From NCBI GenBank assembly GCA_905234195.1, contig CAJOFR010000007.1, forward strand, positions 1 to 47,153: a stretch of 47,153 bases of DNA, in the 5' to 3' direction. Source of the stretch: an uncultured Selenomonadaceae bacterium. Its GTDB lineage: Bacteria > Bacillota > Negativicutes > Selenomonadales > Selenomonadaceae. Of this stretch, positions 1 through 35,678 are shown piece after piece. The first letter of the stretch is position 1; each line of letters opens with the position of its first letter. The position numbers and the translations under genes are program-made. The notes under the pieces are model-generated. The model was not told the origin of the DNA. It worked only from the letters and a program-made list of their open reading frames with translations, and ran no database searches.

Positions 1-78
1 GCATTTGGTCGCGTGATGCGACCTCTGCGGGCAGTTTTCTTTTGCTTCTTTTCTTTTGCGCCAAAAGAAAAGAAGATG
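1..78 (-). repeat. Three-hairpin 3'-UTR element, copy 1 (cut by window edge)
   Basis: Partial copy of the element also found at 15011, 16507, 23338 and 35558. Read on the minus strand, hairpin A has a 13-bp stem (75-63 with 57-45) of pyrimidine-rich then purine-rich DNA. Hairpin B follows, with inner stem GGTCGC/GCGACC (23-18 with 12-7) around a 5-nt loop. One arm of the outer stem, GCCCGCA, is at 32-26; its partner and hairpin C lie at or beyond the window edge. The element starts about 44 nt after the wecB stop and has the same orientation as wecB. Confidence 0.85.
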
Positions 79-14948: not shown

Positions 14949-15010
14949 TTTTAGGGAATAGGGATAAGATTTTTTTCCCTTAAAACTTTCCACTTTCCCC
15001 TTGATAAGGG

Positions 15011-15114
15011 CATCTTCTTTTCTTTTGGTGCAAAAGAAAAGAAGCAAAAGAAAACTGCCCGCAGAGGTCGCATCACGCGACCAAATGCGGGCGAGCCGTC
15101 ATCCATGACGGCTC
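15011..15114 (+). repeat. Three-hairpin 3'-UTR element, copy 2
   Basis: Hairpin A: 13-bp stem 15014-15026 with 15032-15044, all pyrimidine on one arm and all purine on the other. Hairpin B: outer stem GCCCGCA/TGCGGGC (15057-15063 with 15086-15092), inner stem GGTCGC/GCGACC (15066-15071 with 15077-15082), loop ATCAC. Hairpin C: GAGCCGTCA/TGACGGCTC (15093-15101 with 15106-15114), loop TCCA. It is downstream of and codirectional with acrB. Inverted heptads flank it (14951-14968 and 15135-15161). Confidence 0.92.
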
Positions 15115-15134
15115 CCAACCCTCAAAAAACTTTC

Positions 15135-16476: not shown

Positions 16477-16506
16477 GTGGCAAGTTTTTAGGGATTAGGG
16501 ATTTGA

Positions 16507-16614
16507 CATCTTCTTTTCTTTTGGTGCAAAAGAAAAGAAGCAAAAGAAAACTGCCCGCAGAGGTCGCATCACGCGACCAAATGCGTGGGAGCCGTCATCC
16601 ATGACGGCTCCCAC
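16507..16614 (+). repeat. Three-hairpin 3'-UTR element, copy 3
   Basis: Hairpin A identical to copy 2 (16510-16522 with 16528-16540). Hairpin B has the same inner stem and GCCCGCA arm (16553-16559), but its 3' outer arm is altered to TGCGTGGG. Hairpin C is correspondingly longer: GTGGGAGCCGTCAT/ATGACGGCTCCCAC (16585-16598 with 16601-16614), a 14-bp stem. Heptads TTAGGGATTAGGGAT (upstream) and CCCTTATCCCTAAA (16630-16643) bracket it. It follows pyrE in the same orientation. Confidence 0.92.
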
Positions 16615-16666
16615 CTTCAAAAAACTTTCCCCTTATCCCTAAATACAGGTATACAAAAACAAAAGC

Positions 16667-22235: not shown

Positions 22236-23288
22236 ATGGATAAAAAAGAAGCACTTGCGGCGGCGATGAAACAAATCGAAAAAGAGTTCGGCAAAGGTTC
22301 GATAATGCGCATGGGCGAAATTGGCAACCTTGATGTAAAATCTGTGTCGACGGGAATTTTGCCGCTCGATGTTGCGCTGGGGATAGGCGGGCTTCCGCGC
22401 GGCAGGGTCGTTGAGATTTACGGGCCCGAATCCAGCGGCAAGACGACGGTCACCTTGCACATGATAGCCGAGATGCAACGGCAGGGAGGGACGGCGGCTT
22501 TTATCGACGCTGAACACGCGCTGGATCCTGTCTACGCGAAAAATTTGGGCGTGGATCTCGACGAACTTTTAGTCGCGCAACCCGACACCGGCGAACAAGG
22601 TCTGGAAATTGCTGACTCGTTGATTAGCAGCGGAGCTGTTGATATGGTCGTCATTGATTCTGTCGCCGCGCTTGTGCCGAAGTCCGAGATTGAAGGCGAT
22701 ATGGGTGATTCCCACGTCGGTCTTCACGCGCGAATGATGAGCCAGGCGATGAGAAAACTTGCCGGCGTTATCAGCAAGACGGATACCATTGCAGTTTTTA
22801 TAAATCAGATTCGCGAAAAGGTCGGCATTATGTTCGGCAATCCGGAGACAACAACCGGCGGGCGCGCGCTGAAATTTTATTCGACTGTTCGTTTGGAAGT
22901 CCGCAAGGGTGAGGCGATTAAACAGGGCACGGAAGTTGTCGGCAACCGCACGAAAGTTAAGGTCGCGAAAAATAAAGTTGCGCCGCCCTTCAAGACGGCG
23001 GAGTTTGATTTAATGTACGGCAAGGGGTATTCGCGTTCGGGCAGCGTGCTGGATATGGGGGTAATGTTTGATTTTATCAGCAAGTCCGGCGCGTATTTTT
23101 CCTACAAGGGCGAAAGGCTCGGTCAGGGGCGCGAAAATGCCAAAAAATTTCTGCGCGAACATCCGGAAATAGAAGCGGAAATAGAGCAGATGATTTTGGC
23201 GTCCGTCAGAAAAAATGGCGCGCCTCACGAACAGCCGCTCGAAGTCGAAACGGATTCGCAGGTTGTTGAAGAAACCTTCGTGGAATAA
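22236..23288 (+). CDS. recA: Recombinase RecA
   Basis: ATP-dependent strand-exchange protein for recombinational repair and SOS co-protease. 350 residues. Walker A GPESSGKT (63-70), the DAEHALDP segment, Walker B-like [11 protein letters not shown], and a DNA-binding loop region ending [16 protein letters not shown] lies 6 nt before the ATG. The C-terminal tail is acidic ([13 protein letters not shown]) as usual. Upstream is the divergent antitoxin; downstream is hairpin element copy 4 and then parA. Confidence 0.97.
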
Positions 23289-23337
23289 TTTTTTCTGTTG
23301 AAGGTTACTTACTTTCTTTTTTCCTTCGTTAAGGAAC

Positions 23338-23440
23338 ATTTACTTTTCTTTTTTAGAAAAAGAAAAGTAACAAAAGAAAAATCGCCCGCTGAGATTGCAT
23401 CACGCAATCAACGCGGGCAGGGCCGTCATCCTTGACGGCC
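23338..23440 (+). repeat. Three-hairpin 3'-UTR element, copy 4
   Basis: Same architecture with changed stems. Hairpin A: TTACTTTTCTTTTT/AAAAAGAAAAGTAA (23340-23353 with 23357-23370). Hairpin B: outer GCCCGC/GCGGGC (23384-23389 with 23413-23418), inner GATTGC/GCAATC (23393-23398 with 23404-23409), loop ATCAC conserved. Hairpin C: GGCCGTCA/TGACGGCC (23421-23428 with 23433-23440). A CCCTAATCTCT heptad follows. It is downstream of recA and codirectional. Confidence 0.9.
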
Positions 23441-23461
23441 TTTTCAATTTTCCCTAATCTC

Positions 23462-23636
23462 TAAAAATCGTCACACACCTTGTGCGGCGTCTTTTATTTT
23501 GGCGGAAAAATTTTTTCACGGAAAAAAAGTTGTGACGATACAGCGCAATTTAATGCAGGATAGTAAAAATTTGCGGCGAAATAGAAAAAAAATTTGTTTC
23601 TCGAAAAATTCCGGTTAGAAAGAAGGTTTGTCAAGC
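23462..23636 (+). other. recA-parA intergenic remainder
   Basis: The recA-parA gap is 348 nt. After element copy 4 and its heptad it is AT-rich, with no ORF, no clear promoter match and no convincing terminator. A parA promoter is expected here but I cannot place it. Confidence 0.4.
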
Positions 23637-24398
23637 GTGGCTAAAGTTATAGCAATAGCTAATCAAAAAGGCGGCGTCGGGAAAACTACGACGTCTTTAA
23701 ATTTAAGTGCATCTCTCGCAAGTTTCGACAAGCGCGTTCTGCTCGTGGATTGTGATCCGCAGGGCAATGCAACGAGCGGGCTTGGCATAAACAAATCGAC
23801 TGTTGGCAGGAGCGTTTACGACGTGATAATAAATAATTTTGAGATACGCGCGACGTTGCAAATGACTTCGTACGGCATCACGCTCCTCCCCGCAAATATT
23901 AATCTTGCCGGCGCGGAAGTCGAAATGGTGAACATAATCGCCCGCGAAGGAAGATTGCGCAACGCCCTTGATAAAATTCGTGACGAGTACGATTATATTT
24001 TAATCGATTGCCCGCCGTCGCTCGGTCTTCTCACCGTGAACGCGCTGACCGCTTCGGACGCCGTCATTATTCCGATTCAGTGCGAATTTTACGCGCTGGA
24101 AGGTGTCACTCAACTTTTGAACACGATAGAAATTGTCAAGAGCAACTTGAATCCTCTGCTTGCGATTGAAGGCGTCGTCATGACAATGTTTGATACGCGG
24201 ACGAAACTCAGCCAACAAGTCGTCAAGGAAGTGCGAAAAAGTTTCGGCTATCTCGTCTACGAAACGATGATTCCCCGCAGTGTTCGGCTGTCGGAGGCTC
24301 CCAGCTACGGCAAACCCATTCTCGCTTATGACAGGTCTTCGCGCAGTGCAAAAGTTTATCTGAATTTGGCTAAGGAGGTCGTTGAACGTGGCCAGTAA
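23637..24398 (+). CDS. parA: Chromosome-partitioning ATPase ParA/Soj
   Basis: Deviant Walker-A ATPase that moves or regulates ParB-parS complexes. 253 residues: NQKGGVGKTTT with signature K11 and K16, the VDCDPQGNAT Walker A' motif, and IDCPPSLG as Walker B. The start is GTG at 23637, 10 nt after AGAAGG; a TTG at 23628 sits too close to that site. parB overlaps its end by 11 nt. Soj/ParA-ParB pairs normally lie near the replication origin, but none of the other usual neighbours (gidA/mnmG, rsmG, dnaA) is in the window. Confidence 0.95.
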   Translation: MAKVIAIANQKGGVGKTTTSLNLSASLASFDKRVLLVDCDPQGNATSGLGINKSTVGRSVYDVIINNFEIRATLQMTSYGITLLPANINLAGAEVEMVNIIAREGRLRNALDKIRDEYDYILIDCPPSLGLLTVNALTASDAVIIPIQCEFYALEGVTQLLNTIEIVKSNLNPLLAIEGVVMTMFDTRTKLSQQVVKEVRKSFGYLVYETMIPRSVRLSEAPSYGKPILAYDRSSRSAKVYLNLAKEVVERGQ

Positions 24399-26038: not shown

Positions 26039-27121
26039 TTGGAAGACGAAAAAAATTATATTATCAGCGTGAAAGGCGGCGGCAAAAATCGCGAAATCCG
26101 GATGTCGTCCGCTCTATTCCGGTTCGGATTGTTTTCACTATTTGTCGGCTTTGTGATTTTTATTGTCGCGTGCAGTTATTCCGTTTACAGCGCGCTGAAC
26201 TATCAGAAAAACGCGGAGGCTATCGCCGAAATGCAAGAGGCCACCGCAATGCAACAGGAACAGATTTTGGCTATCGCGAAGAAGGCAAGCGAATTGAGTG
26301 ACACGCTCCAAAATCTTGCGCGGATTGAAGAGGAATTGCGTTTGCAGGCGGGGCTCAAGCCGCCTAAACCGGACGTCGAAGAGATCCCCGAAAATCCCGA
26401 CGCCGAAGAAAATAATTCCACTCCCGCCGAAAATAAACCTGCCACCGAAAATAAACCGACTCCCGCTGAAAATAAACCTGCCACCACTCCCGAAGGCAAA
26501 CCCAACGGGCAGGGCGGTCCTTTTGAAACTCTGAACACCGAAAACGTTGCCGAAGCTTTGGCGATGATTGAAGAGCGCGTGATTATTCGTCAAGAGAGCA
26601 TCGAAGATTTTGCTAACGAGTTGAAAATTCAGCACGCGCAACTTGCGATTAATTCCGACACTAAGAAAAATAATCCGCAGTCAAAAATTCAGATTAACGA
26701 TATCGATTTAACCGACATCGCGAAAAATATTCCTTCAAACGATCCGAACACGCCTTCTATTTGGCCGACGGTAGGGACTGTTTCTTCGCCGTATGGTCTT
26801 CGCTGGGAAGGAAAGGAATTTCATTCGGGGATAGATATCGCCAACGAAATGGGCACAGATATTGTAGCGACGGCTGACGGTGTCGTGGAGTACGCGGGCT
26901 GGAATGACGGCGGCTATGGCAACATGGTCGATATAAATCACGGCAACGGTTTGATGACACGCTACGGGCACGCCTCGCAGGTTCTTGTTGCCGAAGGGCA
27001 GGAAGTCAAGCGCGGGCAGGTCATTGCGAAAATGGGCAGCACAGGCAATTCGACGGGTCCGCACGTCCATTACGAAGTTCATGTAGACGGGCAGCGCGTC
27101 AATCCTGTCAGTTATCTTTAA
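26039..27121 (+). CDS. Membrane-anchored M23 peptidoglycan peptidase
   Basis: 360 residues. Short cytoplasmic N-terminus, one membrane helix (about 27-50), a coiled coil (about 58-105), then a low-complexity linker of repeated AENKPAT/TENKPTP-type units. The C-terminal LytM/M23 zinc domain has H262-x3-D266 and H342-V-H344, so the metal site is complete and the enzyme is probably active. TTG start, 7 nt after CAGGGGGA. The architecture resembles elongation or division-associated endopeptidases. It follows DUF4446 by 29 nt. Confidence 0.92.
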   Translation: MEDEKNYIISVKGGGKNREIRMSSALFRFGLFSLFVGFVIFIVACSYSVYSALNYQKNAEAIAEMQEATAMQQEQILAIAKKASELSDTLQNLARIEEELRLQAGLKPPKPDVEEIPENPDAEENNSTPAENKPATENKPTPAENKPATTPEGKPNGQGGPFETLNTENVAEALAMIEERVIIRQESIEDFANELKIQHAQLAINSDTKKNNPQSKIQINDIDLTDIAKNIPSNDPNTPSIWPTVGTVSSPYGLRWEGKEFHSGIDIANEMGTDIVATADGVVEYAGWNDGGYGNMVDINHGNGLMTRYGHASQVLVAEGQEVKRGQVIAKMGSTGNSTGPHVHYEVHVDGQRVNPVSYL

Positions 27122-27133
27122 GGAGGGTTTGGC

Positions 27134-28285
27134 TTGAAAAAATTTTTGGAACTTATTCAGCGCATGCACAGGGAACGTTATTCCGTCGTAATTAACAGAC
27201 TCGTGGCAGAAAAAATCCCCGTTGCTTTCCTTTCCGTAGCACCTCTTGAAAATGCTGTCGACACTGTCAAAGATCTGCGCGCGCAGGGTTTGAATATCAC
27301 GACACTTGTTACAATCTCTACCCCCCCCCTTTCGGGGTTGGAGCTTGATTTCGAGGTGATAACGCTGGATAAATTTTTGCGACTGCAACCGCGCCCCGAA
27401 TATGTTTTCGCGCCGGAAAATACTGCGTCCAGAGTGGCTGTTAAATATATTCCCGATTGCAAAGTCATCAACTTGAGCATAAGTTTAAATTATACAAACA
27501 TAGTTCACGATTATTTCATGTCAAATGTGGTGGAGTTCCAAAAATTTTACGAATCACTTGTAGACGAAGAGTCACGCAAAACTTTTTACGGGTACTGGTT
27601 ATTCAGAGTTACTGCTTTGTTTAGGGAATTGTTTTTCGCAAGCACTTCACATTATTTAGCCGGGGGTTTTGTTCCAAAAGAAGGCGATGTCTTCATTGAT
27701 TGCGGGACTTGTGACGGGGGCACGGCGTCGAAATTTGCCGATATTGGTTGCAAAGTTTACGGCTTTGAAATGGACAAACAAAATTTTGAAATAGCAAAAG
27801 AGGTTGCGGAGAAAAAAGGATTTGTCGTCGAAAATTTCGGGCTCGGCTCCTACAAGCACGAAATGAAATACACTCACGACGAAGGGAATATCGGCGGCAG
27901 TAGGTTTGATTCGGGCGGCAAAGAAGTCGCGCAGATCATCACCCTTGATTCTTACGTTGGCGAAAATAAAATTCCCCACGTCGATTTTATCAAGCTGGAC
28001 GTCGAAGGCGCGGAGCTGGGTATTTTAAAGGGAGCGACGACGACGATTTTGAGATTCAAACCGGTTCTTGCTATCAGTGTCTACCACAAGCTTGACGATT
28101 TTTTGGTACTCATGAACTTTGTAAAATCTGTTCGTCCGGATTATGAATTTGCCCTTCGTCATTATGGCGAAAGACGCGAAGACGTTCCATTCTTGTTTAA
28201 GAATAATGAGGAGGAAAATTTCGCTGCTTTGGGATTGGAGCCGGAAGTCAGATCTTCCGTAGAATGCGTTTTGTTTGCTCGTTAA
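27134..28285 (+). CDS. FkbM family methyltransferase, paralogue 1 (C-tract in frame)
   Basis: 383 residues. The first ~150 residues form an extension I do not recognise, containing a Pro-rich spot where nine Cs (27321-27329) encode T63-P-P-L. The C-terminal part is an FkbM (Methyltransf_21) SAM-dependent domain: motif I VFIDCGTCDGG around D189, a YGFEMD motif, and FIKLDVEGAE (K287-D289). FkbM enzymes often O-methylate surface sugars or lipids; the substrate here is unknown. TTG start with AAGGAGGG upstream. It is paralogous to the next gene, whose start is exactly 1171 nt further on. Confidence 0.88.
   Translation: MKKFLELIQRMHRERYSVVINRLVAEKIPVAFLSVAPLENAVDTVKDLRAQGLNITTLVTISTPPLSGLELDFEVITLDKFLRLQPRPEYVFAPENTASRVAVKYIPDCKVINLSISLNYTNIVHDYFMSNVVEFQKFYESLVDEESRKTFYGYWLFRVTALFRELFFASTSHYLAGGFVPKEGDVFIDCGTCDGGTASKFADIGCKVYGFEMDKQNFEIAKEVAEKKGFVVENFGLGSYKHEMKYTHDEGNIGGSRFDSGGKEVAQIITLDSYVGENKIPHVDFIKLDVEGAELGILKGATTTILRFKPVLAISVYHKLDDFLVLMNFVKSVRPDYEFALRHYGERREDVPFLFKNNEEENFAALGLEPEVRSSVECVLFAR
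27321..27329 (+). repeat. Homopolymeric C9 tract in FkbM paralogue 1
   Basis: Nine consecutive Cs at codons 63-65, about 187 nt into the coding region. Nine Cs keep the full reading frame open. Confidence 0.95.
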
Positions 28286-28304
28286 ATTTTAAGGAGGGGT
28301 TATC

Positions 28305-29451
28305 TTGAAAAAATTTGTGGAACTTATTCAGCGCATACACAAGGAGCGTTATTCCGTCGTCCTGAATAAAATCGTGGCGGAAAAAATCCCTGTCGCTTTC
28401 CTTTCTGTCGCGTCTCTTGAAAACGCTATCGACATTGCCAAAAATCTGCGCGCGCAGGGTTTGAATATCACGACGCTTGTTACAATCTCTACCCCCCCTT
28501 TCGGGTTTGGAGCTTGATTTCGACGTGATAACGCTGGATAAATTTTCGCAACTACACCCGCGCCCCGAATATGTTTTTACGATCGGACATTTGGAGGCAA
28601 GAATCGCGTTGAAGTATTTTCCAAATTGCAAAGTAATTTTTGAGGGGATAAATAACACAGATTATATTTACGACGTGTTTATGAATCATTTGTCGGAGCT
28701 CCAAAAATTTTACGAATCGCTGATTGACGAGGAGTCAAAGAAAACTTTTTGCGGATACTGGCTCGGCAATGTCTCCAATCAGTTTGGCGAAATTGTTCAC
28801 GCGAAAGGTGCCCACTATTTCACGGAAGGTTTTCTCCCTGCGCGCGGGGCTGTGGTAATTGACGGAGGTGTTTGCGACGGCGGAACGGCCGCGAAATTTA
28901 CGGAGTTCGGCTACAAAGTTTATGGCTTCGAGATGGACAGAGAAAATTTTCAGATGGCTAAGAAGGTCGCTAAGGAAAAAAATTTTGTCCTGGAGAATTT
29001 CGGGCTCGGCTCGTACAAACACGAAATGAAATACACGCACGCGCCCGGCGGTAACGTCGGAGGGAGCAAACTTGATAACGAAGGTTCAGAGACTGCAAAA
29101 ATTACGACGATTGATGATTACGTCCGCAAAAATAAAATTCCCCGCGTCGATTTTATCAAGCTGGACGTCGAAGGCGCGGAGCTGGATGTTTTGAGGGGTG
29201 CCGTCACGACAATAGTAATGCATAAACCGATACTCGCTATCAGTGCTTATCATAAGTGGGACGATTTTTGGACGCTCATGGATTTTATAAAATCTATCCG
29301 TTCGGATTACGAATTTGCTCTAAGGCAATACACTTCTACCCGCGAAGACGAGGGTACGCTTTTTTCGGACGATACAGAGGATATTTTATACTCGTTGGGT
29401 CTGGAGGTAGTTTTGAAAGGTTACAACGAATGCGTTTTGCTCGCGCGATAG
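28305..29451 (+). pseudogene. FkbM family methyltransferase, paralogue 2 (frameshifted at C7 tract)
   Basis: Same TTG start, strong AAGGAGGGG site and N-terminus as paralogue 1. At the equivalent position (28492-28498) there are only seven Cs, so the frame runs into a TGA at 28515-28517 after 70 residues. The remaining frame to 29451 is fully open and encodes an intact-looking FkbM domain (VVIDGGVCDGG, YGFEMD, FIKLDVEGAE). The piece downstream has no ribosome site of its own. A change to C9 or C6 would restore about 381 residues. I list it as a pseudogene for this sequence state, but it may be a phase-variable gene in the OFF state or a homopolymer sequencing error. Confidence 0.85.
28492..28498 (+). 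repeat. Homopolymeric C7 tract causing frameshift in FkbM paralogue 2
   Basis: Collinear with the C9 tract of paralogue 1 (offset exactly 1171 nt from both the start codon and the tract start, with no other indel between). It has two Cs fewer, which shifts the frame. Confidence 0.95.
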
Positions 29452-29475
29452 AAAATTTTTAAAGGATGTGTTTTA

Positions 29476-30258
29476 TTGGATAAACGAATTTTATTTATAA
29501 GTCAAGGCAGTTCCTTTATGGGCAACTCCATACAGAAAAAACTTGAGAGTTTCGGTTTTGACATTACCCATATTGAGCCGATTGACGAGGAGTTGATTGA
29601 AGGCAAGAACGCGGCGGATGTTTTTGTGTTTTGTCTTGGGAAATTTATCGACGACACTCCGAAATTTCTCTTCCGCCTCGAAGATATTTGCCTAAAGGAA
29701 AGAAAAGCACTGGTACTTTTGGGTAGCGGCAGCGAAATGGATTTCGTGAAGGAAAAAATTCCTTCGGTACCGATAGACGGGAGATTTCAACGCCCAATCG
29801 ATTTCAAAAGACTCACCGACAAAATAAACAGTCTGCTCGGCAACGTCGAGGAAGTCGAAGAAAAAATCATGCCGAAGGTTGTCGCAAGACCGAAAAGTAT
29901 TTTGCTCGTCGACGACGACCCGACTTTCCTAAAAATGATGAAGGCATGGCTTAGCGACCATTACCGCGTTACGATTGTGACGAGCGGCACGCAAGCCCTG
30001 CTGTACCTTGCCGGCAACAAGCCCGATTTGATTTTGTTGGATTATGAAATGCCGGTGACGAGTGGTCCGCAGGTTTTGGAGATGATTCGCAGTGAAAAAA
30101 ATTTCGCCTCAATCCCCGTGATGTTTTTGACGGGGAAGGACGACCGCGAAAGTGTTTTGAAAGTTCTTTCGCTGAAACCGGCGGGCTACCTGCTGAAGTC
30201 ACTCAAGCGCGACCAAATTTTATCTTCGGTCAATGAATTTTTCGCTGACAAGGAGTAA
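29476..30258 (+). CDS. Double-receiver response regulator without output domain
   Basis: 260 residues. The C-terminal ~120 residues are a canonical receiver: LLVDDDP acidic pocket, phospho-acceptor D189 in LLDYEMP, FLTGK threonine-lysine region. The N-terminal ~115 residues look like a second, degenerate receiver: the position of the acidic pair reads ISQGSS and that of the phospho-site VFCLGK, so it should not be phosphorylated. There is no DNA-binding or enzymatic output. TTG start with AAAGGATG upstream. It sits between FkbM genes and a Ppx/GppA phosphatase; no cognate kinase is adjacent. Confidence 0.82.
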   Translation: MDKRILFISQGSSFMGNSIQKKLESFGFDITHIEPIDEELIEGKNAADVFVFCLGKFIDDTPKFLFRLEDICLKERKALVLLGSGSEMDFVKEKIPSVPIDGRFQRPIDFKRLTDKINSLLGNVEEVEEKIMPKVVARPKSILLVDDDPTFLKMMKAWLSDHYRVTIVTSGTQALLYLAGNKPDLILLDYEMPVTSGPQVLEMIRSEKNFASIPVMFLTGKDDRESVLKVLSLKPAGYLLKSLKRDQILSSVNEFFADKE

Positions 30259-30297
30259 AGGCTAAGGGGAAAAATTTTTTTAAAAGGCGGTGACGAA

Positions 30298-31218
30298 ATG
30301 CTTTACGCGATGATTGATGTCGGCTCGAATACTATTCGGATGGCGATTTACAAAATTGAAGGCGACCGCGTTGAAATGCTCATGAAAAGAAAACACGCTG
30401 TCGGGCTTGCGTCCTACGTTCGGGATAGTTTTATGCAACGGCAGGGCATCGATAAGGTTGTTGAAATTATTTCGGAGTATCGAAATTTTTTGGAGGAGCT
30501 GGGAATAGATCGCGTGACGGCTTTCACCACCGCCGCACTTCGTAACGCGGTGAATGGTGGCGACGCCGTCAAGGAAATTTCTCACCGGTCCGGAATAAAT
30601 ATCTCGATGATGAGCGGCGACGACGAAGCGACTTTCGATTTTATCGGCGCGACGCATAATCTGGTTGACGACAAAGGGCTTTTGATTGACATTGGCGGCG
30701 GCAGCACGGAGATTGTTTATTTTGCCGACCGCGAAATAAAAGTCAAAGTCAGCTTGCCGATTGGTTCGTTGAGTTTTCACACGCGATACACCGGCTTTCA
30801 CGTTTTGCCGAACGCGACCGAGTGCGAAGAGATGTACGCCGAAGCCGAAGCGACAATCAGCGCGGTGCAGGAGTTCCGTGACGTTTCCCACGCGCAAATT
30901 TGCGGGATAGGCGGGACTTTCAAAGGCGCGATGGCTCTTTACAACGCAATGTACGGAATGCCGCGCAGGAATATGTTAATGGAAGTCAGCCGCCTGCGCG
31001 AAATTTTGAGACGTTTTCTGCGCGATAATGAATTGATTGTGCCCGAAAAAGTTTTGCTTATGCGGACTGTGCCCGAACGCATGCATACTTTCATGCCGGG
31101 TCTTGTTATCGCGGACGTGCTTGCTAAACGTTTTGACAGCGACCACATAATTTACAGCGATTCGGGCGTCCGCGAAGGTTATATCTACTCGAAAATTTTA
31201 AACGACGAAGATTTTTAA
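30298..31218 (+). CDS. Ppx/GppA family phosphatase
   Basis: 306 residues of the exopolyphosphatase/pppGpp phosphatase fold (actin-like ATPase superfamily): phosphate-1 loop MIDVGSNTIRMAIY at 5-18, AAALRNA-like segment, second phosphate loop LLIDIGGGSTEIVY, and GIGGTFKGA. It lacks the extra C-terminal HD-like domain of long Ppx proteins, so it is a short GppA/Ppx2-type. The substrate, polyphosphate or (p)ppGpp, cannot be decided from sequence. AAAGGCGGTGA precedes the ATG. FkbM paralogue 3 follows 13 nt later. Confidence 0.9.
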   Translation: MLYAMIDVGSNTIRMAIYKIEGDRVEMLMKRKHAVGLASYVRDSFMQRQGIDKVVEIISEYRNFLEELGIDRVTAFTTAALRNAVNGGDAVKEISHRSGINISMMSGDDEATFDFIGATHNLVDDKGLLIDIGGGSTEIVYFADREIKVKVSLPIGSLSFHTRYTGFHVLPNATECEEMYAEAEATISAVQEFRDVSHAQICGIGGTFKGAMALYNAMYGMPRRNMLMEVSRLREILRRFLRDNELIVPEKVLLMRTVPERMHTFMPGLVIADVLAKRFDSDHIIYSDSGVREGYIYSKILNDEDF

Positions 31219-31231
31219 GGAGGAATTAATT

Positions 31232-32377
31232 TTGAGCGTGGAGTTTTTAAAAATGGTCTCCGAATTATACAGTCAACGCTACTTAGTCAAATTACAATCG
31301 CTCATAGCAAATAAAATTCCTTGCGGATTTTTTTGCGGGTTTGCTTTTCTTGAAAATGTTCCGGCGTTGGCTAAACAATTAAAGGATATGGGGATTAATC
31401 TCACGTGCATTTGTGTAATGGACGAGACTAGAAAAATCGAAGGAGGTTTGGACATCCCGATTATCACGCTTGAAGAATTTTCCAATTTAGAGCCTAAACC
31501 CGCACAAATGTTTCACTTCGACGGAGTGATAACACCGGCTTTCAGAAATTATTTTTTACGTTACGGAACGAATACTTGGATTTTGTCGAACGCAAACGCA
31601 ATGGAAATGTTATACGGTTTTTACATTCAGCACTTGTCGGATCTATATACGGTTCACGAAATGTTTTCCGACGAAGAATCCAAAAAAGTTTTCAGAGCGT
31701 CCATAAAAGGCAAGCTGACGTATCGCATCGAAGATTTTCGGTACGCGCCGGAGCCGCAATATTTTTTGGAAGGATTCTTTCCGACTGGAGGCGATATTGC
31801 GATTGACGGCGGGGCTTACGACGGAGGAACGGCGCGGGATTTTGCCATGCAGGGCGCGGAAGTTTATTCCTTTGAAATGGACGAAAAAAATTATCGAAAT
31901 TGCCTTGCGCGGGCGAAAAAATATAAGTTCACCGTCGAAAATATGGGCTTAAGCAATCAGGAAAATGAAGATTTTTATATTCAGGGCAACACCGGTAGCC
32001 GCAAAGGCGGCAACTCCGGATTAATCGCGAAATTTATCGACTTGGACACTTATGTTATACGAAAAGATCTTCCGCGCGTCGACTATATAAAGCTGGACAT
32101 TGAGGGCGCGGAACTTGATATGCTGCACGGCGCGGCGAAAACTATTGCGCGCTGGAAACCGAAAATGGCTGTGTCCGCTTACCACAAGCCCGAAGATTTA
32201 TTTACGCTGGCGACTTATATTAAATCTGTTCGTCCGGATTATGAGTTTAAATTCAGGCATTACAGGATAGATTTTACCGACTACGAATTAAACGACGCAC
32301 AAAGAGATATTTTTAGAAAATTTGGTTTGAGTTTCTTTGTACCCAGTGGCTGTGAAATGGTTCTTTATTGCCGATAA
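31232..32377 (+). CDS. FkbM family methyltransferase, paralogue 3
   Basis: 381 residues with the same layout as the two paralogues at 27134 and 28305: an unrecognised N-terminal half and a C-terminal FkbM domain (IAIDGGAYDGGTA motif I, YSFEMD, YIKLDIEGAE). It has diverged clearly and lacks any C tract; the corresponding N-terminal region reads CICVMDETRKIEGG. TTG start, 8 nt after AAGGAGG. Like the others it ends with a conserved YHKxED/DF...SVRPDYEF segment and a short Cys-containing tail (CEMVLYCR). It is probably cotranscribed with ppx. Confidence 0.87.
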   Translation: MSVEFLKMVSELYSQRYLVKLQSLIANKIPCGFFCGFAFLENVPALAKQLKDMGINLTCICVMDETRKIEGGLDIPIITLEEFSNLEPKPAQMFHFDGVITPAFRNYFLRYGTNTWILSNANAMEMLYGFYIQHLSDLYTVHEMFSDEESKKVFRASIKGKLTYRIEDFRYAPEPQYFLEGFFPTGGDIAIDGGAYDGGTARDFAMQGAEVYSFEMDEKNYRNCLARAKKYKFTVENMGLSNQENEDFYIQGNTGSRKGGNSGLIAKFIDLDTYVIRKDLPRVDYIKLDIEGAELDMLHGAAKTIARWKPKMAVSAYHKPEDLFTLATYIKSVRPDYEFKFRHYRIDFTDYELNDAQRDIFRKFGLSFFVPSGCEMVLYCR

Positions 32378-35509: not shown

Positions 35510-35557
35510 AACAATCCCTCTCCTTTACCAAACAGTTTTAATTTCCCAAAATCGGGA

Positions 35558-35655
35558 GGCCGTCAAGGACGACGGCCCTGCCCGCGCTATGAGCGTGACG
35601 CGAATACAGCGGGCGATTTTTCTTTGCTACTTTCTTTTTCTAAAAAAGAAAGTAG
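35558..35655 (-). repeat. Three-hairpin 3'-UTR element, copy 5
   Basis: Minus orientation. Hairpin A: CTACTTTCTTTTT/AAAAAGAAAGTAG (arms 35655-35643 and 35639-35627). Hairpin B: outer GCCCGC/GCGGGC (35614-35609 with 35585-35580), inner stem shortened to GCG/CGC (35601-35599 with 35595-35593) around TCA. Hairpin C: GGCCGTC/GACGGCC (35577-35571 with 35564-35558). It starts 24 nt after the mtlA stop and precedes mtlD. The flanking heptads are weak here. Confidence 0.88.
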
Positions 35656-35678
35656 TTAAAAACTTTAAAGATAAAATT

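Follow-up and report, generated by a model that had tools for sequence, protein, structure and literature searches.

A dispersed, three-hairpin repeat of about 110 bp from a Selenomonadaceae bacterium, with a mirror-coded head that may fold as an intrastrand triplex closed by a pseudoknot

The BOX repeats of pneumococcus and the ERIC repeats are modular, structured, intergenic and present in high copy number, as is the element described here; to our knowledge neither has a mirror code or an ANGGAX hairpin, and they are set apart from it by description, not by sequence. Telomerase-RNA and SAM-II type pseudoknots place a U-rich loop in the major groove, the position taken by the first loop in the H-type topology. 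REP/BIME sequences with TnpAREP, as presented in the available text of PMC8266576, are likewise short palindromic extragenic repeats in high copy. The closest described system is the intrastrand triplex motif, for which four classes are in use (ITxF / PIT; Holder et al. 2015, PMC4666352). Motifs of this kind have been described in bacteria since at least 2000 with function unassigned, as cited in that paper, whose accessible sections report the GC-rich motif TMECO/BoxC in 262 proteobacterial genomes, with no known function and with genome instability around it; they also state that purine-motif triplexes cannot form in RNA, and their main text does not use the word pseudoknot. As far as we have seen, this is the only paper describing the triplex class among the open-licence literature found, most of which was judged from its listing. 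A search of such papers with eight motif stretches returned none on this element by title and start of abstract.

The window analysed here is a stretch of 47,153 nucleotides, contig CAJOFR010000007.1 of assembly GCA_905234195.1 from an uncultured Selenomonadaceae bacterium. A first-pass annotation had described in it five copies of an ordered three-hairpin element, and a covariance model built from 24 copies recovered all five in place as its five strong matches; the remaining 8 of the 13 model rows at E <= 10 are weak and all fall on the same copies. We call top strand the one on which hairpins A, B and C follow one another, and head the unit formed by hairpin A and its linker.

15011..15114, plus strand: complete copy (model match 15010-15123, 133.6 bits), flanked by an RND permease gene and pyrF
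15014..15044, plus strand: hairpin A, with pyrimidine arm, loop and purine arm (from sequence and fold)
15046..15054, plus strand: linker AAAAGAAAA, putative third strand, mirror-symmetric in this variant and read as a mirror from the asymmetric variants of other copies and species
15057..15092, plus strand: hairpin B, with outer stem GCCCGC/GCGGGC and inner stem-loop GGTCGC-ATCAC-GCGACC (from sequence and fold)
15093..15114, plus strand: hairpin C (from the fold), with octamer CATCCATG at 15100-15107
15100..15107, minus strand: bottom strand of the octamer, CATGGATG, an ANGGAX hexaloop
16507..16614, plus strand: second copy (match 16506-16619, 123.7 bits), between pyrE and carB
23338..23440, plus strand: third copy, variant 2, with arm AAAAAGAAAAG and mirror linker AAAAGAAAAA (match 23336-23450, 109.8 bits), flanked by recA and a ParA-like gene
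35558..35655, minus strand: fourth copy, variant 3, with arm AAAAAGAAAG and mirror linker AAAGAAAAA (match 35548-35659, 86.1 bits), flanked by mannitol-1-phosphate dehydrogenase and mannitol PTS genes
1..78, minus strand: fifth copy, with hairpin A and most of B but no C (match 1-79, 93.7 bits), its 3' part cut by the contig end

The ordered architecture is borne out by folding and by covariation. For each sequence folded, the energy lay 3.5-8.9 standard deviations under those of dinucleotide shuffles, with none of 200 shuffles as good; the complete copy at 15011..15114 reaches -57.8 kcal/mol (z -8.4). In the alignment of 24 copies, 96.9% of pair cells do pair, against 89.4% after shuffling and 44-54% when the partner strand was slid, and 14 of 35 pairs, including pairs of the inner stem of hairpin B, have changed on both sides. 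All five covariation measures exceeded all 500 shuffles and every slid register, figures that are not probabilities because the copies are related. The outer stem of hairpin B is present as first described, although partly broken in the 16507..16614 copy.

Across 83 copies of this genome, sequence sharing is strong beginning roughly 16-22 nt ahead of the purine arm, a stretch that corresponds to the pyrimidine arm (about 60 nt ahead in a minority), and is lost by degrees some 75-80 nt past the first base of the purine arm, just beyond hairpin C. Within these limits the copies are modules in differing combinations: arms A4GA4, A5GA4 and A6GA3 each come with the matching linker, hairpin B has two main forms, hairpin C has several stems, and internal deletions take out whole hairpins cleanly (L265/L266, L027, L029). 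Some copies carry an extra small hairpin on their 5' side, seen by eye, such as CCAAAGAGTTTGG or CCCCTTGATAAGGGG. The element is a real, widespread and structured dispersed repeat unit of about 110 bp.

Five copies proved far too low a count, and the absence of further copies, which the first-pass annotation would have taken as a refutation, does not apply. The model gave 146 matches at E <= 0.01 in the 2.09-Mb genome (88% complete), of which 21 under 57 bits, mostly overlapping stronger opposite-strand matches, were set aside; the resulting number of at least 125 copies is a lower bound, 150 of 1781 candidates having been scored. Contigs of the assembly begin or end inside copies (window 1-78; G000:C15:1-88; G000:C4:132279-132380, G000 being the genome of the window), so the repeat probably breaks the assembly and its copy number is underestimated. 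Beyond this genome, a search under stricter filters gave matches in 19 of 24 congeners and in 0 of 16 genomes belonging to different families within the class; when more of the genus was sampled, 52 of its 60 genomes, our own included, had matches. Copy number ranges from 0 to more than 100 within the one genus, and two congeners whose RecA is 83% identical to that of the host have no copy (G009) and one copy (G008). A search of the recA and pyrE neighbourhoods, with 29 congener loci each, found no clean empty insertion site; only four of these loci contained a match (L189, L197, L212 and L230, that of L197 at E 0.001), and gene order often differs. The ParA-like gene that follows recA in the window (23288-24398) is absent from all 29 congener recA stretches searched, which indicates that gene order has changed at the 23338..23440 copy.

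Copies lie between genes, often less than 60 nt from stop codons. Gene context was assigned with a home-made gene caller for 84 of the at least 125 copies, in loci chosen because they hold copies: 31 of the 78 that could be classified are in convergent gaps, 24 are tandem and co-oriented with both neighbours (top strand), 13 are tandem antisense and 10 are divergent, while three more overlap called genes and three lie at edges. The excess of convergent over divergent positions, the proximity of stop codons and the T run that follows hairpin C in some copies would suit a structural module of 3' ends that needs no specific partner, be it a two-way terminator or an mRNA stabiliser. We nonetheless consider this unlikely: many copies have no T run, the 13 tandem antisense copies do not fit, a plain terminator needs neither the mirror code nor the constant octamer described below, and a related GC-rich motif of E. 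coli had no terminator activity according to earlier work cited in the available part of PMC4666352. Among loci of other phyla found by sequence pattern, tandem positions were co-oriented and antisense in equal number (19 each), 11 positions were convergent and 9 divergent, and the rest lay inside genes (3) or at edges (18). In one congener, a copy (L046:1501-1624) lies directly downstream of a tRNA gene (1372-1445) on the same strand.

The head carries a code of its own. The stem of hairpin A is as first annotated, but the linker, which had been called A-rich, is with few exceptions the mirror image of the purine arm: A3GA5 goes with A5GA3, and A4GA3 with A3GA4. Pairs from other species, AAAGAAAAAG/CAAAAAGAAA, AAAAGAAAG/CAAAGAAAAG and AAAAGAAAGAAA/AAAGAAAGAAAA, are mirror rather than direct, as is that of a Ruminococcus albus plasmid (arm GAAGAAAGAAAAGAAC, linker AAAAGAAAGAAG). 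Over all groups we counted 55 hairpins with a mirror linker, 9 with a direct one, 53 ties and 129 rows without a linker, this last number including opposite-strand readings of the same hairpins; about 4 of the 55 (L243, L268, the second L307 and the first L284) and 4 of the 9 (L003, L004, L302 and L320) are chance flank matches, and 5 of the 9 direct rows have the A4GA4 core, which is its own mirror. Loci L055-L174 were omitted from this count, since the pattern used to fetch them fixed arm and linker, and were kept for the loop and octamer analyses. The cleanest test comes from viral contigs found through the hairpin alone with the linker left free (17 stretches, four scans), which gave 13 mirror, 0 direct and 5 tied rows besides 22 without linker, opposite-strand readings again among them. 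Rows from one genome are not independent. The mirror rule is broken by two linkers, that of L305 and that of the second L285 copy. A direct-repeat or strand-switch reading of the linker was ruled out by the asymmetric arms.

In mirror order the linker is able to run beside the purine arm as a third strand, A facing A-T and G facing G-C, and its covariation with the arm across lineages suggests that selection keeps such a strand. The possibility of a triplex had been raised from the purine/pyrimidine split alone; it is the agreement between arm and linker that supports it. In addition, the loop of hairpin A is complementary in many species to the bases just after the linker (TCGCC/GGCGA, GCGTC/GACGC, AAGCCC/GGGCTT). 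Among 131 distinct elements of other genomes with loops of at least 5 nt (49 of 180 had shorter loops and were left out), 87 can form at least 4 bp, against a mean of 25.7 and a maximum of 42 in 1000 shuffles, and 54 at least 5 bp, against 6.8 and 17. Such pairing between the loop and the sequence flanking the third strand, seen in those 87 elements, is the arrangement of a triple-helix H-type pseudoknot, and it is the loop pairing that says which fold would form. The head would then be an intrastrand triplex closed by a pseudoknot, although the main variant of our own genome has a loop too short for a clear one.

By its order of blocks the head belongs to published class II, the triplex as such being predicted here: pyrimidine, purine and mirror purine follow on one strand, the stem measures 6-15 nt with at most one mismatch, and the class loop size of 1-6 nt fits the listed copies of the host, loops elsewhere reaching 14 nt. 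This place of the head in a published class was missing from the first-pass annotation. As in the class II motifs of PMC4666352, judging by the text available, a 5' pyrimidine block is followed by a purine block and its mirror, loops are short, positions are intergenic and copy number is very uneven among close relatives; unlike those motifs, the present one is A-rich, belongs to a larger unit that also has hairpins B and C, often shows loop-linker pairing in other species and occurs outside Proteobacteria as well. TMECO/BoxC itself (CCCTCNCCC N3-6 GGGNGAGGG N3 GGGNGAGGG) was considered and dismissed, the copies being A-rich and the pattern matching once in all loci. Relative to this literature, what appears to be new is that linker and arm covary as mirror images, that the loop pairs beside the linker, that the octamer is constant and CsrA-like on its bottom strand, and that the hosts are so diverse.

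The head recurs in at least six phyla (genome scan, at least 120 stretches). The scan pattern was modelled on a proteobacterial sequence, and the scan bore it out. Host groups, named from record titles with some classes assigned from general knowledge, are for head plus linker the Gammaproteobacteria, Betaproteobacteria, Desulfobacterota, Lentisphaerae, Clostridia, Nitrospirae, Selenomonadales and, within Bacteroidota, Saprospiraceae, Chitinophagales and Mucilaginibacter; the head also occurs in a Spirochaetia MAG. Two exact length variants of hairpin A were present in 2 and 3 of 398 genomes of the phylum, the host included, and are thus rare there. A query from Aggregatibacter matched 22 plasmid records, mostly Burkholderiaceae, and had no match in E. 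coli genomes or in phages; a query from the window gave only short matches, to 4 plasmid and 10 phage records. In Paraburkholderia, the head begins a unit of about 320 bp, found as an inverted pair at one site in four strains; in P. phymatum the intergenic stretch at this site is empty and measures only about 120 bp, whereas that of P. caribensis holds the two inverted copies and measures about 957 bp. The inverted pair on the P. caribensis chromid (L309:9360-10060) ends in a conserved GCCCAGGTGGCAAACTGTGTGT block. In a Clostridia MAG (L085:371-418), the head sits inside a longer palindrome whose extra 5' pyrimidine block might pair with the linker; this may be an ancestral form or an alternative one.

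Comparison with families of mobile repeats and RNAs agrees with the earlier distinction from REP and with its finding of no recognisable RNA family. The tetranucleotide GTAG was found within 10 nt 5' of hairpin A, the hairpin to which this test was applied, in only 2 of 83 copies, and no Y1 transposase tracks the element, which sets aside a REP/RAYT origin; compared with REP/BIME as described in the accessible text of PMC8266576, the element is longer, three-part and endowed with a triplex code, and it is without GTAG in 81 of 83 copies. Nor does it have the terminal inverted repeats of a MITE: in 83 copies, comparison of the 5' end with the complemented 3' end gave a shared stretch of at most 6 nt. 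Rfam searches of the window and of 15 related loci gave no match at gathering score over the element, the four matches in these loci all lying elsewhere. A permissive search of 7 loci gave sub-threshold overlaps only (for instance Phe_leader at 30.6 bits with 55 needed, and human miRNA models) besides RF02421, a predicted Burkholderia sRNA (Bp1_684) at L310:2405-2516 on a B. cepacia plasmid, on the opposite strand and overlapping the head (2510-2547) by a few bases.

These data allow a reading in which the structure serves mobility and copying only. The element would be a mobile DNA repeat whose top strand, single-stranded at replication, folds into a purine-motif triplex hairpin followed by hairpins B and C, and is recognised by a putative single-strand DNA enzyme, as REPs are by TnpAREP. 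We take this as a serious possibility, short of probable but close behind the RNA reading given below. The head fits the published class II order Y-R-R' (PMC4666352, text available); the modular mosaics with clean hairpin deletions, the range of copy number within one genus and the two states of the Paraburkholderia site are what such a repeat would leave; the R-T pair that closes the loop of hairpin C can form on the top strand, as A-T or G-T; and one partial Y1 transposase match exceeds the cut-off in the host genome (G000:C37:7094-7276, 59.4 bits, an open frame of 80 aa). However, no enzyme tracks the element: Y1 matches were found in 4 of 25 genus genomes, that of the host among them, all partial, and in 0 of 6 genomes at least 90% complete, among them the copy-rich G004, G006, G015 and G023. 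Neither a target site duplication nor exact ends can be defined, the ends not being sharp and one two-copy insertion (Paraburkholderia) having been compared; the nearly invariant T of the octamer and its ANGGAX match would be left without explanation; and no replication-strand bias was seen, element strand being independent of GC skew (28 versus 22, from the 50 of 84 copies that were usable).

That the element is a selfish or neutral repeat kept by gene conversion, its palindromes arising from replication slippage and its structure unselected, is already disfavoured and strikes us as very unlikely. The core is indeed very uniform within one genome, and the element is absent or nearly so in some near relatives, but in several phyla the mirror covariation, the pairing of the loop and the octamer all come back, at levels well beyond those of shuffled or background controls.

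The octamer is the constant part of hairpin C. The CCGTCA/TGACGG stem given in the first-pass annotation is not general, for the stem varies between copies around a nearly constant CRTCCNTG; for this octamer, as for the pseudoknot, no description was found in open-licence papers, most of them judged from the listing alone. The octamer hairpin (C[AG]TCCNTG on at least 5 bp) is present in 65 of 83 copies of the genome and, within the window, is confined to the four copies that include hairpin C. In searches that demanded TCC, with 13 own and 126 other copies lacking such a hairpin, the outer C-G was present in all 70 own hairpins and in 71 of the 76 others, and the second and seventh bases were A.T or G.T in 67 of 70 and 71 of 76. 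Of 105 non-selenomonad heads, 19 are followed by an octamer hairpin at no more than 200 nt and none is preceded by one, for a background of 0.005 per 200 nt (35 such hairpins in 1.42 million strand-bases of non-selenomonad loci); all 19 belong to Gammaproteobacteria or an unassigned proteobacterial MAG. Wobble pairs were tried as a guide to the acting strand and abandoned: an excess of GT over AC in hairpin C (21 and 2) was due nearly entirely to the R-T pair at the base of the TCC loop, and a recount without that pair is balanced (9 and 10 in own copies, 4 and 4 in others), so that no strand polarity is claimed.

Read on the bottom strand, the octamer becomes CANGGAYG, an ANGGAX hexaloop closed by C-G, and the 65 octamer hairpins thus have the sequence form of a CsrA/RsmE site. 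According to the available text of PMC4005645, a C-G-closed ANGGAX hexaloop directly on a stem contributes to high-affinity RsmE binding, and PMC7652899, in the part available, gives RUACARGGAUGU as the CsrA SELEX consensus; the stem CCGCACATCCCTGTGCGG, present in three own copies, yields ACAGGGAUGU, which equals the SELEX core ACARGGAUGU exactly. The likeness is to the CsrA/RsmE hairpins of CsrB and RsmZ as described in these two sources, from which the element differs in having more than 100 dispersed loci, one such site per copy and a long GC-rich stem, and in being known from sequence alone. The host has csrA (G000:C10:5079-5237), as do 53 of 60 genomes of the genus, and among 49 genomes reached through loci the gene occurs in 12 of 14 with the octamer versus 13 of 35 without it (Fisher p 0.004; 10 of 12 versus 13 of 35, p 0.008, when the two selenomonads are removed), an association confounded by phylogeny. 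It was not found in two octamer-bearing MAGs (the genomes of L168 and of L064/L154). Against a link with CsrA, genus members without the element still have csrA (G003, G007 and G009); 86 of the 105 non-selenomonad heads, those of csrA-bearing Stenotrophomonas and Pasteurellaceae among them, lack an octamer hairpin at up to 200 nt; and the window stems measure 7-12 bp, whereas most SELEX hairpins have four or fewer contiguous pairs (PMC7652899, available part).

The strand opposite to the one first described may be the informative one. On the top strand the third strand is purine (A.A-T, G.G-C), the type that PMC4666352 excludes from RNA; on the bottom strand it is pyrimidine, parallel to the purine strand, and can form in RNA. 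Head and hairpin C, two independent modules, can thus both be made sense of as RNA of the bottom strand, and the explanation we lean towards, tentatively and at less than an even chance, is a non-autonomous dispersed repeat that acts, if at all, through such an RNA. The repeat would settle between genes, seldom between divergent ones, and its RNA would present 5' to 3' hairpin C, with its C-G-closed ANGGAX hexaloop as a putative CsrA/RsmE-type site, then hairpin B, then the head. There, the bases before the pyrimidine linker would pair with the loop of hairpin A into an H-type pseudoknot, the linker running parallel and in register along the purine strand to form U.A-U and C+.G-C triples. In its most likely use, a neighbouring transcript running into a copy would gain a CsrA-type docking hairpin and a knotted, exonuclease-resistant 3' part. 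What the data show directly is that the element is repeated, that its copy number turns over, that it has the mirror code and the constant octamer, that loop and linker flank pair in other species, and that copies sit between genes; the triplex, the strand that acts, its transcription, binding by CsrA and any effect are inferences. Like telomerase-RNA and SAM-II type pseudoknots, the bottom strand would combine a first stem with a pyrimidine loop 1 that keeps register with the second stem's purine strand; unlike them it belongs to a repeat element, without known ligand or enzyme, and its triplex is a prediction.

This RNA reading is held only tentatively next to the single-stranded DNA one because there is no shared promoter, gene orientation is not biased in its favour and wobble pairs have no polarity. 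No conserved promoter was found past hairpin C, where sharing between own copies ends at once, and tandem pairs place the bottom strand antisense more often than sense in the host (24 versus 13) and equally across phyla (19 versus 19). A stronger version, in which a telomerase-like pyrimidine-motif triple-helix pseudoknot and the CsrA-type hairpin of selenomonads and some Gammaproteobacteria together turn the repeat into a mobile decoy or tagging system for CsrA, spread over the genome and knotted in its 3' part, seems to us rather unlikely. If it were true, amplification of the repeat would scatter more than 100 docking sites of a global regulator between genes. More generally, should the bottom strand act as RNA, bacteria would hold a family of triple-helix pseudoknot RNAs spread as repeats; should the top strand act as DNA, the head would be a natural purine-motif triplex under selection; and a tie through the ANGGAX hairpin would connect the spread of a repeat with global post-transcriptional control.

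Two minor observations concern the window and its genome. Positions 27117-32262 of the window hold adjoining, partly duplicated genes (repeat families D1 and D3-D5, 60-88% identical), which look like a gene family in tandem. In intergenic stretches of the host genome, many copies have TCCCTAA/TCCCTTA-like heptamers in short runs beside them.
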